Positions 2,205 to 26,218 of a stretch of 26,218 nt of DNA are shown here, piece after piece (within the stretch, counting starts at the first letter, position 1; every line of letters starts with the position of its first letter). Under the pieces are notes generated by a model. It had not been told where the DNA came from. It was given only the letters and a program-made list of their open reading frames with translations, and did not search any database. The position numbers and the translations under genes were made by a program. The stretch covers positions 1 to 26,218 of the IMG/VR virus record IMGVR_UViG_3300021478_000103; one strand, written 5' to 3'. Source of the stretch: a virus.

Positions 2205-3751
2205 AGACGCCTAACTGGTTACGCAAACTCTCCAATCTGTTTTCCGGGAAGCGCTCGCTCACCGTGTTCCACGGCGCGGCGGGCGGCCGCCTGACGATGG
2301 ACTGGGTCGCCTCGATCCTCTCGGCCGACCAGGAAATCAAAGGGAACATTCGAATGCTTCGCGCGCGTGCGCGCGAACTGTCCCGAAATAATCCCGTCGC
2401 GAAGTCCTACCTGAAGATCCTCACGGCGAATGTGCTCGGCGAAAAGGGCATTGGCTACAAGCCTCAGGTGCGGAACAACGACAAATCCCTCAACACCGCG
2501 TTCAACCAAAAAATCGAGGACGCGTGGAAGGACTGGGGGACGTTTGGGAATTGCACGGTCGACGGCAAGCTCTCTTTCCGCGGCGTCCAGACTCTCGTGC
2601 TCAAGAACATCGCGACCGATGGAGAGGTCTTCGTTCGGAAGGTCCTCGGGTTCCCGAACAAGTACCGCTTCGCGGTTCAGGTGATCGACGCCGATCAGGT
2701 CGACCCCACCTTCAACCGCTACGCCGAGAAGGGCCAAAACGAAATCCGTATGGGCGTTGAAGTCGACGAGTGGGGACGTCCTGTCGCCTACCACGTTAAC
2801 GAGAGGCACCCATCCGATCTCGGCGGCTCTTTTATCCGTACGCGCATTCCGGCGGACCAGATCCTCCATCTCTACGATCCCGAGCGCGTGAACCAGACCC
2901 GCGGGATTACCTGGTTCCATCCGTGCATGTTCGAACTGCGAATGCTCGGCGGTTACGTTGAGGCGGAGCTTATTGCCGCGCGCACGGGCGCCGCGAAGAT
3001 GGGCTTCTTAGAGTCCACCGATGCCGCTGCGTTCGTCGAGCCCAATGACGAAGCGAAATACCGCATCGAGGCACAGCCAGGGGTCATCGAGCAGATCCCG
3101 CCAGGTCTGAAGTTTACGGCGTGGAGTCCAGACCATCCTGCGTCTGCCTTCCCTGCGTTTGTGAAGGCCATGCTCCGTTTCGTCGCGTCTTCGATGGGGG
3201 TCTCCTACAACGCGCTCGCATCCGACCTCGAGGGTGTCAACTACTCTTCGATGCGCTCGGGTCTGCTCATCGAACGCGACCAGTGGAAGATGCTGCAGTC
3301 GCTCCTGAAGGAGCAGATGCTGCAGCCAATCTTCGAGCCGTGGATCTCGATGGCGCTGCTCTCGGGTGCTCTCTCGCTCGACTCCCGCGATCCCGCGCGC
3401 TTCTGTGCCGGCAAATGGGAGCCACGCGGATGGGTCTGGGTCGACCCGCTCAAGGACGTGCAGGCGACAATTCTCGGCATCGGTGCGGGTCTCACATCGC
3501 GCGATGCGGCGATCTCCGAGCAAGGCGGCGACGTCGAGGAAGTCTTCGAGCAGCTCAAGGAAGAAGACGATCTCGCGAAGGAATACGACCTGCAGCTCAC
3601 GATCACCGCGAAGGCTCCCATCGTCGACAAGGGTCCGAAGGACCAGATAGTCGAGGAAGACAACCCGGATGCAGCGGGCACCGCTGCCGAGGACGGAAAG
3701 AAATCTGCGGCTGGAACACGCCGCCTCATTTCACTTGGGGGGAGAACATGA
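2201..3751 (+). CDS. portal protein, lambda gpB family
   Basis: A 516-residue portal, close to the usual size of the lambda-type family. It forms the dodecameric ring at the capsid vertex through which DNA is packaged and ejected. Recognisable stretches are RARARELSRNNPVAKSYLK near residue 50, the DGEVFVRKV region, the IDADQVDPTFN block, the DEWGRPVAYHV strand pair, the PADQILHLYDPERVNQTRG segment, and NYSSMRSGLLIERDQWKMLQ before the C-terminal clip or barrel. The acidic, low-complexity C-terminus (EEDNPDAAGTAAEDGKK) is typical of a disordered tail. It starts at ATG 2201 overlapping the connector stop and ends overlapping the protease-capsid start. Confidence 0.93.
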   Translation: MKTPNWLRKLSNLFSGKRSLTVFHGAAGGRLTMDWVASILSADQEIKGNIRMLRARARELSRNNPVAKSYLKILTANVLGEKGIGYKPQVRNNDKSLNTAFNQKIEDAWKDWGTFGNCTVDGKLSFRGVQTLVLKNIATDGEVFVRKVLGFPNKYRFAVQVIDADQVDPTFNRYAEKGQNEIRMGVEVDEWGRPVAYHVNERHPSDLGGSFIRTRIPADQILHLYDPERVNQTRGITWFHPCMFELRMLGGYVEAELIAARTGAAKMGFLESTDAAAFVEPNDEAKYRIEAQPGVIEQIPPGLKFTAWSPDHPASAFPAFVKAMLRFVASSMGVSYNALASDLEGVNYSSMRSGLLIERDQWKMLQSLLKEQMLQPIFEPWISMALLSGALSLDSRDPARFCAGKWEPRGWVWVDPLKDVQATILGIGAGLTSRDAAISEQGGDVEEVFEQLKEEDDLAKEYDLQLTITAKAPIVDKGPKDQIVEEDNPDAAGTAAEDGKKSAAGTRRLISLGGRT

Positions 3752-5793
3752 ACCTGACAGAGCGCGCTCCAAAGGAAAAGCTCGGCGACTCGCTACCGAT
3801 GCTGATGAGGGAGTTCGAAGTTCTGGAAATGGTTCCCGTGGTGAAGCGGGTGCTCACCGACGAGGAGCGCCTTGCTCGCAAAGAGCGCCGCAAGAAGAAA
3901 GCCGACGCCGGCGAGAAACCAGATCCCGAGGACGAGGACGAAGACGACGGGCCGGACGCGGACCGCTTTGACATCTCCATCTCCTCCGAGGCTCCAGTGG
4001 AGCGGTGGTTCGGGAAGGAAATCCTCGACCATTCTCCCGAGGCCATCGATCTCTCCCGTGCAAAAAAAGGTCTTTCGTTTCTCGATTCACACGATGCGAA
4101 GTCGGTCATCGGCATCGTCGAGAAAGCGAAAGTCGGCGACGACAAAAAGCTCCGCGGTCGACTCCGGTTCTCTCGGAGCGCGCCGGCGCAGTCCATTAAG
4201 CGGGACATCCAGGACGGGATTCGCCGGTTCATCTCCGTCGGTTACTCGGTCAGCGAGTACACGCTGGACAAGTCCTCGAAAGAGGAAGGCGAGACGTACC
4301 GTGCGACGAAGTGGACGCCGATGGAGGCGAGTTCGGTCGGAGTTCCCGCAGATCTGACCGTGGGCCACGAACGCAAGGCAGGAGACACGCTGTACCCAGT
4401 TTTAGTTCGAAGTGCAAATCCGGCTCCCGAGCCGAATCCTAAGGAGGTTACCGTGGAACCAACTGTTGCAGAAGCACGGGCCGCCGGCGCTGAAATTATT
4501 CGGCTCGGCAAGGTCCACAACATCGATCAGGAACGCGTGGCGAAAGCAATCGCTGACGGCGAGTCCGTCGATGCATTCTCGCGCCACTGTCTCGATGAAG
4601 TCACCAAGCGCGGCGCGAAGCCGCTCACGCAGGCCCCGGCTGAAAACCAGGACCGCGTGGAGCTCACCGACGACGAGCAGAAGAGGTACAACCTGGCGCG
4701 CGGGATCATGGCCTCGATCACCAACATCGAGACTGGCACGCGCAAGGTGAAATCTCTCGAGACGGAGATCTCGGAGGACATCGAGAAGAACTGGAAAGGC
4801 GAGCGGCACGGTGGGTTGTTCGTGCCGTGGAGTCTCCGCCACGTCTGGACGCCGCAGCTGCAGGAGCTATTCGGCGACCGGATGAAATCCCGAGCGGGTT
4901 TGGACTCGGCGACCGCGACGGCCGGCGCGGAATTGAAGTTCACCGAGGCGGGGGAATTCATCAAGTTCCTCTACAACGCCATGCGCGTAAAGCAGCTCGG
5001 CGCGCGAACTATCACGGGTCTCAGGGAGAACGTCTCCTATCCAAAGCAGACCGGGAAAGCGACCGGCTCGTGGGTGGGTGAAAATCCCGGCACCGACGTG
5101 GCGGACTCCGCTCTGACGCTCGGCTCCATCCTGGCGTCTCCGCACACCTATCAGTCTTCGACCAGCTATTCGCGGCAATTGCTGGCTCAGGCCGTTGTCG
5201 ACGTCGACTCGCTCGTGCGTGAAGACCTCGCGCGCGACCAGGCGCTGGCCATTGATAGCGTCGCGCTCATCGGTGGCGGCACGAACCAGCCGACGGGCAT
5301 CGCCGGCACGACCGGCGTGCAGGCCTACGTCATGATTGCGGACTCCGCGAACGGCGGCTTGCCTACATGGGACGACATCGTGCTCATGAACGAGAAGCTT
5401 GAGGACGCGAACACCGACCAGCTAGGCGCCGGCGCGTGGCTCACCACGCCGGGCGTGAAGTCCAAACTGAAGCGCACCGCGCAACTGGGAAACACCATCG
5501 GTCTGCCGATCTGGGCGAATGACAATACCGTCGACGGCTATCCCGCGGCGTCGTCCAACCAACTGAAGAAGAACACCACGAAGGGGACGAGCGGCGCGAC
5601 GCTGCACACCCTGATTCGCGGCATCTTCGAGCAGATGATCATCAGCATGTGGGGCAGCGGATTTGAACTGATCGTCGATCCGTATCGCCTGAAGAAGCAG
5701 GGGATGATCGAGCTCACCACCTTTATGATGGCCGACGTTTCGATTCTCTACCCGCCGGCGTTCGTCATCGCCACCGACGTCATCGTCGCGTAA
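3748..5793 (+). CDS. HK97-type prohead protease fused to major capsid protein
   Basis: A single 681-residue ORF. The start at ATG 3748 is chosen because it overlaps the portal stop and follows a G-rich Shine-Dalgarno. The open frame continues back to 3121 but would lie inside the portal gene. After an acidic/basic linker (residues 38-72), residues 75-210 are a U35/HK97-type serine protease with candidate catalytic His115 (FLDSHDA) and Ser195 (EASSVGVPAD). Residues 236-375 form a charged helical delta or scaffold-like segment. Residues 380-681 are an HK97-fold capsid protein (ENPGTDVADSALTLGSI, TSYSRQLLAQAVVDVDSLV, FFxxD-like PDxxRLKKQG near the end). The protease presumably cuts away the linker and scaffold as the procapsid matures. 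A strong internal start at 4453 suggests that separate capsid chains are also made. Confidence 0.92.
   Translation: MNLTERAPKEKLGDSLPMLMREFEVLEMVPVVKRVLTDEERLARKERRKKKADAGEKPDPEDEDEDDGPDADRFDISISSEAPVERWFGKEILDHSPEAIDLSRAKKGLSFLDSHDAKSVIGIVEKAKVGDDKKLRGRLRFSRSAPAQSIKRDIQDGIRRFISVGYSVSEYTLDKSSKEEGETYRATKWTPMEASSVGVPADLTVGHERKAGDTLYPVLVRSANPAPEPNPKEVTVEPTVAEARAAGAEIIRLGKVHNIDQERVAKAIADGESVDAFSRHCLDEVTKRGAKPLTQAPAENQDRVELTDDEQKRYNLARGIMASITNIETGTRKVKSLETEISEDIEKNWKGERHGGLFVPWSLRHVWTPQLQELFGDRMKSRAGLDSATATAGAELKFTEAGEFIKFLYNAMRVKQLGARTITGLRENVSYPKQTGKATGSWVGENPGTDVADSALTLGSILASPHTYQSSTSYSRQLLAQAVVDVDSLVREDLARDQALAIDSVALIGGGTNQPTGIAGTTGVQAYVMIADSANGGLPTWDDIVLMNEKLEDANTDQLGAGAWLTTPGVKSKLKRTAQLGNTIGLPIWANDNTVDGYPAASSNQLKKNTTKGTSGATLHTLIRGIFEQMIISMWGSGFELIVDPYRLKKQGMIELTTFMMADVSILYPPAFVIATDVIVA
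4440..4455 (+). promoter_or_regulatory. internal ribosome binding site and in-frame GTG start for free capsid protein
   Basis: TAAGGAGGT at 4440-4448 is a full-length match to the anti-Shine-Dalgarno of bacterial 16S rRNA. It is followed by TTACC spacing and GTG at 4453, which is in frame with the fusion ORF (codon 236). Initiation here would give a 446-residue scaffold-plus-capsid protein without the protease. It lies exactly at the protease/scaffold junction. The sequence is directly visible; its use in vivo is inference. Confidence 0.6.
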
Positions 5794-23113: not shown

Positions 23114-23403
23114 ACGGACGAACGCACAACGTCGACGACACTCCGGCCGGCCGCATCGCTGCGGTCGCGCGCTCGCTCACGATGAAGATGGCGGTCAAAT
23201 TCGAGAGGACCGGCCAAGGTTGGAAGGAACCGGACTATGCCGACTTCCGCGCGGCGCTCGAGCCATTTCTGAGGAGGGAATTGCTGCTCGCGAGAATCGA
23301 TGAAGCCAGGAAGACCGCGGCGACAGCGCTCACCACGCGCATGAAAGAGCTCGCCGACGAACTCTTCGAGTGCGACGCGACGATTGCGAAGGTGGGTAAA
23401 TGA
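23110..23403 (+). CDS. small helical protein upstream of lysis genes
   Basis: Starting at ATG 23110 (ATGA overlap with the fibre stop) gives 97 residues. The frame is open far upstream, but only within the fibre gene. The sequence is charged and helical (PDYADFRAALEPFLRRELLL, ARKTAATALTTRMKELADEL), with a possible coiled coil from about residue 50 to 90. No signal peptide or membrane segment. Not recognised. It is coupled to the XhlA-like gene and may be a tail-end or lysis-accessory protein. Confidence 0.6.
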   Translation: MNGRTHNVDDTPAGRIAAVARSLTMKMAVKFERTGQGWKEPDYADFRAALEPFLRRELLLARIDEARKTAATALTTRMKELADELFECDATIAKVGK

Positions 23404-23690
23404 GTCCTGTCGAAACGTCCGGCGAGTGGCGCGACGAGCGGCTCTATGTTCTGAAAACGCTCGAGGCGGTGCAACTGGAACAGCGCAGGAAAGCAGAATC
23501 GGACGCGCTGCTCATCCAGGGGCAGATGGTGAAGGCGTCGCAGGACATCAAGGCCGCTCACGACAAAATCCGCATCCTCGAGAGCTCGGGGTCTGTTCTA
23601 AAAATAAAGAACTGGATCATGACCGCTCTGCTCTCGGTGATCGTGATGCTGGCCTTCGAACTGGTGAAGGGTTACGTGCGGCACAAATGA
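23400..23690 (+). CDS. XhlA-like coiled-coil membrane protein (lysis accessory)
   Basis: 96 residues. A coiled coil (YVLKTLEAVQLEQRRKAESD to about residue 60) is followed by one transmembrane helix at about 71-88 (NWIMTALLSVIVMLAFELVK) and a short basic tail. This is the layout of the XhlA hemolysin-like family, which sits beside holin and endolysin genes and works with the holin at the inner membrane. It is joined by four-base overlaps to the genes on both sides and lies directly upstream of the endolysin. Confidence 0.65.
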   Translation: MSPVETSGEWRDERLYVLKTLEAVQLEQRRKAESDALLIQGQMVKASQDIKAAHDKIRILESSGSVLKIKNWIMTALLSVIVMLAFELVKGYVRHK

Positions 23691-24271
23691 ACTTCCCGCT
23701 ATCACCGGAAATCATCGCGGCGATCCTCGGGCCCTACGGTCCGTTCGTCAACGTCAGCGCGAACTGGCCGCTCATCGAAGCGGCGCTCGACAGGCGCGGA
23801 ATCTACTCATCGCTGTGCGCTGTCGCGGCGATCTCGACGGTGGCGCTCGAGACGGGGAAGTTCGGTCCCATCAAAGAGCAGGGCGGGCCCACCTATCTCA
23901 CAAATCTGTACGAAAACAGGAAGGACCTCGGCAATACGAATCCCGGCGACGGCGTGAGGTTTCGCGGCCGCGGGTTCATCCAGATCACGGGGCGCTGGGA
24001 CTACGCGCATTTCGGCGCCGAAATCGGGCGGGACCTCGAGAACACTCCCGACCTGGCGCTCGATCCCGCCGTCGCCGCCGACATCCTCGCTTTGTACTTT
24101 CACGAGCGCGGCGTCCCCGCGGCCGCGGACCAGCAGAATTGGGAGATGGTCCGGCGCAAAGTGAACGGCGGCCTCACCGGCTGGCCGCGCTTTATCGACA
24201 CCGTCACGCGGCTCGTGGCCGCGCTCAGAAATCCCCCGCCAGCGGCGGGCACTTCACAGGAGGTAACGTAA
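23687..24271 (+). CDS. GH19-type endolysin
   Basis: 194 residues starting at ATG 23687, which overlaps the previous stop. The GH19 chitinase/lysozyme hallmarks are present: AISTVALETGKFGPIKEQGG with candidate catalytic Glu55 and second Glu64, YENRKDLGNTNPGDGVRFRG, then GRGFIQITGRWDYAHFG, and LDPAVAADILALYF. The enzyme would cut the peptidoglycan sugar backbone. No signal peptide or separate binding domain is visible, so export would depend on the holin. The length is typical for single-domain members. The gene is followed by an AGGAGG Shine-Dalgarno for the next small gene. Confidence 0.88.
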   Translation: MNFPLSPEIIAAILGPYGPFVNVSANWPLIEAALDRRGIYSSLCAVAAISTVALETGKFGPIKEQGGPTYLTNLYENRKDLGNTNPGDGVRFRGRGFIQITGRWDYAHFGAEIGRDLENTPDLALDPAVAADILALYFHERGVPAAADQQNWEMVRRKVNGGLTGWPRFIDTVTRLVAALRNPPPAAGTSQEVT

Positions 24272-25590: not shown

Positions 25591-25779
25591 ATGTCTCAAA
25601 CGCACCAGCCCGGTCTCATCGATGCTCTCGTGGAAATCGGCAGAGAGCGACAGCGAATCCTCACAAACCTGCGAACCGCCTATGAAGCGCACGACCTCGA
25701 CGGGGTCCTGAAGCACGTCGGGGAAATTGTGGGAGTCGAAGAAAAGATCGAGGAGGAGCCGCGTGAAAAAAGTCATTGA
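25591..25779 (+). CDS. small helical orphan protein preceding the recombinase
   Basis: 62 residues with an AAGGAAAGG-type Shine-Dalgarno. Two predicted helices (DALVEIGRERQRILTNLRTA and a second containing GVLKHVGEIVGVEEK) separated by a short turn, acidic at the end. No family is recognised. Its stop lies 17 bases inside the recombinase gene, so the two are translationally linked. It might be a regulator of the recombinase, but no recombination-directionality motif can be seen. Confidence 0.55.
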   Translation: MSQTHQPGLIDALVEIGRERQRILTNLRTAYEAHDLDGVLKHVGEIVGVEEKIEEEPREKSH

Positions 25780-26218
25780 GCTCATCCGGGTCTCTACATC
25801 CGAGCAGGCGGCCGACGACCGCGCGAGCATCCCCGCGCAGCGTGCGGTGAACCGCAAGACCGCGGCGGCCTACGATCTTACGATCATCAAGTCCGTCGAA
25901 CTGTCGGATGTCTCCGGCACCGCGGTGCTCCGCACTCCCGAGATGCAGGACCTGCTCCGGCTCATCGAGTCCCCAGATATCAAAGGCGTGGTGGTGCGCG
26001 AGTTCTCCCGCGTCATGCGGCCCGACAACTTCGGCGACTACGTGCTATTCCAAGTTTTCCAGGACACCGGCACATTGCTGTACCTTCCCGATGGGCCGCT
26101 GGACTTCAACAGCAAAACGGGGAAACTCGTTGCAGGCCTCCGCGCGATCATCTCGGGAAACGAACTCTCGGAAATTCGGGAGCGCATCTGGACCGCCAAG
26201 GAAGAGATGCGCCGCGAT
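25763..26218 (+). CDS. serine recombinase/integrase, N-terminal part (cut by window edge)
   Basis: Starts with GTG 25763 after GGAGGAG and stays open for 152 codons to the edge. ELIRVSTSEQAADDRASIPA contains the catalytic-serine pattern (RVSTSEQ, Ser11), and KGVVVREFSRVMRPDNFGDY carries the resolvase REFSR block. NELSEIRERIWTAKEEMRR is the start of the linker helix to a larger C-terminal part, which suggests a large serine integrase rather than a small resolvase. It would integrate or excise the phage at att sites. The C-terminal region is outside the window, so the class is inferred. Confidence 0.85.
   Translation, partial: MKKVIELIRVSTSEQAADDRASIPAQRAVNRKTAAAYDLTIIKSVELSDVSGTAVLRTPEMQDLLRLIESPDIKGVVVREFSRVMRPDNFGDYVLFQVFQDTGTLLYLPDGPLDFNSKTGKLVAGLRAIISGNELSEIRERIWTAKEEMRRD

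Follow-up and report, generated by a model that had tools for sequence, protein, structure and literature searches.

In phage HK97, the prohead protease gp4 and the delta-capsid protein gp5 are encoded by separate genes. In lambda, C and Nu3 share one frame and are annotated as nested: a start downstream of the protease domain of C, which is annotated as an S49 family peptidase, gives a short product that lacks the protease. This lambda product is a distinct scaffold protein; the capsid protein comes from another gene. In P2-type phages, the gpO ORF encodes a protease joined to an assembly domain; the two parts are separated by proteolysis and the capsid protein has a gene of its own (PMC10612066). 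Protease-capsid fusions are also already known, for example as a 'fused major capsid and protease' (PMC8601537), and phrog_617 and phrog_4523 fusions are found in VP882, phiHAP-1, R4C, S-CBS1, Arya and S1.

The window, that is, the whole stretch of DNA analysed, spans the 26,218 bases of an IMG/VR virus record and encodes a full-length member of this last kind. Like HK97 it has a prohead protease, a delta domain and an HK97-fold capsid protein, but here they form one ORF with an in-frame Shine-Dalgarno (SD) sequence and start codon inside it.

Organization of the protease-capsid fusion

The fusion ORF and its upstream parts are as follows.

3737-3744, plus strand: SD of the fusion start, GGGGGGAG, -9.5 kcal/mol, weaker than the internal SD
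3748-5793, plus strand: fusion ORF, prohead protease, delta domain and HK97-fold major capsid protein (PF04586, PF05065, phrog_617)
4036-4350, plus strand: S78 prohead protease domain, residues 97-201 (PF04586)

The product has 681 aa (74.5 kDa). Its match to PF04586 (Peptidase_S78) at residues 97-201 scores 21.5 bits, just above the curated cut-off of 21, while PF05065 at residues 409-675 scores 118 bits against a cut-off of 24.2. The single ORF thus encodes a protease followed by an HK97-fold capsid protein, as in phrog_617 fusions, and it matches phrog_617 over nearly its whole length (residues 73-678, E=1.8e-98). Within the protease domain, H115 and S163 are invariant in both alignments of relatives, and we infer that they are the catalytic-type His and Ser of an S78 protease.

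Directly upstream lies a lambda-like portal gene (PF05136), whose stop codon, ending at 3751, overlaps the fusion ATG at 3748. Further downstream, the ORF at 23384-24271, probably an endolysin, has a weak match to glycoside hydrolase family 19 (chitinase-like) and is overlapped by a short ORF in a different frame (23400-23690). An incomplete ORF at the right edge (25727-26218) contains a serine resolvase N-terminal domain (PF00239) and is a possible integrase or recombinase.

An internal Shine-Dalgarno sequence at the domain boundary

Two short elements lie inside the fusion ORF, at the end of a linker.

4372-4461, plus strand: disordered linker, residues 209-238 (pLDDT < 50; AlphaFold2 model)
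4440-4448, plus strand: internal SD, the 9-mer TAAGGAGGT, read from the sequence and conserved in relatives
4453-4455, plus strand: internal start codon GTG, codon 236, read from the sequence; GTG or ATG in relatives

The local sequence reads ...CCT AAG GAG GTT ACC GTG GAA..., and the GTG is in frame with the ATG at 3748, from which it is codon 236. The first-pass annotation had placed a full anti-SD match five bases before this codon, at the boundary between protease and scaffold/capsid. Both statements hold: the AGGAGG core (4442-4447) ends five bases 5' of the GTG and the 9-mer four bases 5' of it, and the Pfam domains together with the AlphaFold2 model put codon 236 at that boundary. Since the model shows residues 209-238 as disordered and the helices of the delta region from residue 240 onwards (240-348), codon 236 lies where the linker ends, four residues ahead of the scaffold-like domain.

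The 8-mer AAGGAGGT (4441-4448) occurs once in the 26 kb window and in 35% of shuffles, and its occurrence alone proves nothing because 0.43 copies are expected by chance. It is the position, frame and conservation of the internal SD that are not explained by chance. Computed against the standard anti-SD, which may differ from the host's 16S tail, the internal SD has a duplex energy of -13.2 kcal/mol, the strongest of 24 putative starts scored in the window and well beyond the -9.5 kcal/mol of the fusion's own start. RNA structure around GTG236 is weak (-7.8 kcal/mol, compared with a gene mean of -13.4 kcal/mol).

The predicted short product

Initiation at GTG236 would give a product of 446 aa (48.2 kDa) composed of the following parts.

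4453-5793, plus strand: predicted short product, delta domain and major capsid protein without the protease, deduced from the internal start
4453-4923, plus strand: delta (scaffold-like) helical domain, about residues 236-392 (AlphaFold2 model; R4C chain alignment)
4924-5790, plus strand: mature HK97-fold capsid part, about residues 393-681, about 31 kDa (PF05065; PDB fold match)

The best PDB fold match of the capsid part is the R4C capsid (8gta), described as a T=7 shell of 415 capsid protein copies in a paper whose text contains neither the word 'protease' nor 'cleav' (PMC10276861). The solved mature R4C chain comprises residues 362-629 of the R4C fusion, and its first residue, 362, aligns to residue 393 of the window fusion; the short product therefore divides into delta (about 236-392) and capsid (about 393-681). 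The delta domain is presumably removed at maturation. The R4C fusion has an internal SD-ATG of its own at residue 189, upstream of the solved chain.

With its conserved in-frame SD and start after the protease domain, the window fusion is probably of the lambda C/Nu3 type, although its protease belongs to PF04586 and not to S49. It differs from C/Nu3 proper, in which scaffold and capsid are different proteins: here PF05065 and the 8gta fold match mark the predicted short product as delta-capsid itself. Such nesting, with protease-free capsid taking the place of scaffold, had been proposed in the first-pass annotation. The predicted product is not bare capsid, however; it is scaffold-like delta plus capsid, like the whole HK97 gp5 precursor.

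Conservation of the internal site among fusions

In IMG/VR relatives with 57-93% identity, SD and start are retained at the domain boundary in essentially all cases. A search of genome contigs found no relatives. Within the clade the start codon is GTG or ATG, a swap between Val and Met, and the SD appears as AAGGAG, AGGGAG, CAGGAG or CGGAGG, with the encoded residues differing accordingly. One such change replaces the Lys codon AAG with the Arg codon AGG, which makes up only a few percent of Arg codons. As SD and start are kept through these residue changes, it is the nucleotide signal that is conserved and not the protein sequence. In one relative (L014) the internal start is an ATG at aa238 with an SD of -9.5 kcal/mol.

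Fusions were then gathered, from 21 annotated phage records as well as from IMG/VR, and reduced to 72 representatives below 70% identity. The linker zone was set by alignment after the first relatives had been viewed by eye, which means that this set was not tested blind. Although linkers are hypervariable in sequence, they contain an in-frame ATG in 69 of the 72 fusions, and ATG or GTG in all 72. The SD energy reached -6 kcal/mol or lower for 54% of linker ATGs compared with 9.9% of the 928 in-frame ATGs elsewhere in these genes (p=6e-21), with medians of -6.1 and -2.25 kcal/mol, respectively. The best internal ATG of the gene falls in the linker in 39 of 72 fusions, where 6.9 are expected. 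RNA at the linker site is less structured than in the rest of the gene (-6.7 and -13.5 kcal/mol). The residue following the linker Met is S, T, A, P or E in 51 of 69 cases, compared with 320 of 928 elsewhere, and thus looks like that of a protein N-terminus.

At least a weak SD match was present in 66 linkers. The energy was above -4 kcal/mol in the other six, so some subgroups may start with little help from an SD. Several subgroups have the linker Met with a weak SD. Among them is an Arya/PPpW-3-like group (L028, L030, L033, L034, L035, L037, L038 and L039), in which the linker Met opens a conserved motif, MxxKxLRDAxGNLVR; this suggests that the same internal start is reached through other initiation signals.

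A second fusion family, of the Stenotrophomonas phage S1 type, was analysed by the same procedure with 35 representatives, of which the query, phage S1, had been seen beforehand and the other 34 were fetched later. Here the best internal ATG lies in the linker in 19 of 35 fusions, where 3.0 are expected (p=6e-12). In both families the P-values are optimistic because representatives were treated as independent despite residual relatedness, though each set shows a large effect. A lack of SD conservation in relatives with the same fusion had been named in the first-pass annotation as grounds for rejecting an internal start; the SD and start are instead conserved in two fusion families.

Three other explanations of the site were considered. 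According to the first, translation yields nothing but the full fusion, with one protease per capsid subunit; the capsid is released when the protease cuts within the linker, and the SD-like sequence arises as a side effect of the charged Lys/Glu residues there. The linker is indeed disordered in the AlphaFold2 model, and P2-type phages use self-cleavage of the protease from a fused scaffold (PMC10612066). However, permuting codons within the linker, which preserves composition, abolishes the coupling of SD and start in the 72 fusions (Fisher p=1.5e-17) and in the S1-type family (p=1e-10). Shuffling synonymous codons gave moderate support (Fisher p=0.003, Wilcoxon p=3e-4); this test is the weaker one, since the Lys-Glu residues of the linker already spell out the SD. 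The SD core also occurs in all three codon phases (23/17/14) at SD-like spacing, with a normal core-to-start peak of 7 nt, whereas out-of-frame ATGs of the same linkers lack SDs (only 10% at -6 kcal/mol or lower). We consider it very unlikely that the fusion is the sole product.

The second explanation, slightly less probable still, is that the site is a little-used relic of once-separate genes in which the old ribosome binding site of the capsid gene persists. Related phages such as Cellulophaga phage phi39:1 do have separate, adjacent protease and capsid genes, which makes it plausible that the internal site may be the former start of the capsid gene, kept once the intergenic stop was lost. 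A relic should decay, yet the site persists across fusions that are about 30% identical and have hypervariable linkers. The least probable explanation, that the SD-like sequence pauses elongation so that the protease can fold ahead of capsid synthesis, fits the location at a domain boundary but requires no start codon, and leaves the in-frame ATG or GTG of every linker, the normal SD spacing, the interchange of GTG and ATG and the N-terminus-like second residues incidental.

Proposed mode of capsid expression

Judging from these sequence features, the fusion gene very probably has two initiation sites, the upstream one giving smaller amounts of protease-delta-capsid and the internal one larger amounts of delta-capsid, and the two proteins co-assemble. 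The fusion would be made by ribosomes that start at ATG 3748. Those that the strong internal SD directs to GTG 4453 would make protease-free delta-capsid, which corresponds to the HK97 gp5 precursor. Because the delta and capsid parts are common to both forms, the two could co-assemble. The protease domains that reach the prohead, all of them carried by the fusion, would be limited in number, and most capsid subunits would be of the short form; after assembly, the protease would cut away the delta domains and itself. The strength of the internal SD suggests that the short form is the commoner of the two, which would ease the stoichiometry problem of a protease fused to the capsid protein.

On this reading, joining a protease to a capsid protein need not mean one protease per capsid subunit, as the ratio of the two would be set by translation and not by separate genes.

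Annotation of internal starts in fusions and in lambda

An internal start was annotated in none of the 21 annotated phage records examined. We also found no description of an internal capsid start in protease-capsid fusions in the open-access literature, although an earlier account may exist elsewhere. The nested-gene principle is ordinary; internal starts in protease-capsid fusions are apparently both new and general. It is likely that initiation at the junction of protease and delta is a general, unannotated rule, that the true capsid subunit is internally initiated, and that the sequence deposited as major capsid protein for many such phages is that of the minor form, which carries the protease. 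Capsid annotations in many marine, soil and enterobacterial phages would then misplace the N-terminus of the main capsid precursor, and this would affect expression constructs, proteomics and structure work.

Lambda C was scored as a positive control, and its annotated nu3 start, at codon 239, was not among the six best internal SDs of the gene. The strongest, at -10.8 kcal/mol, precedes an ATG at codon 309 (lambda position 5342). The protein gpNu3 has a reported size of about 13 kDa, which would fit codon 309, and the annotated lambda Nu3 start may be wrong.
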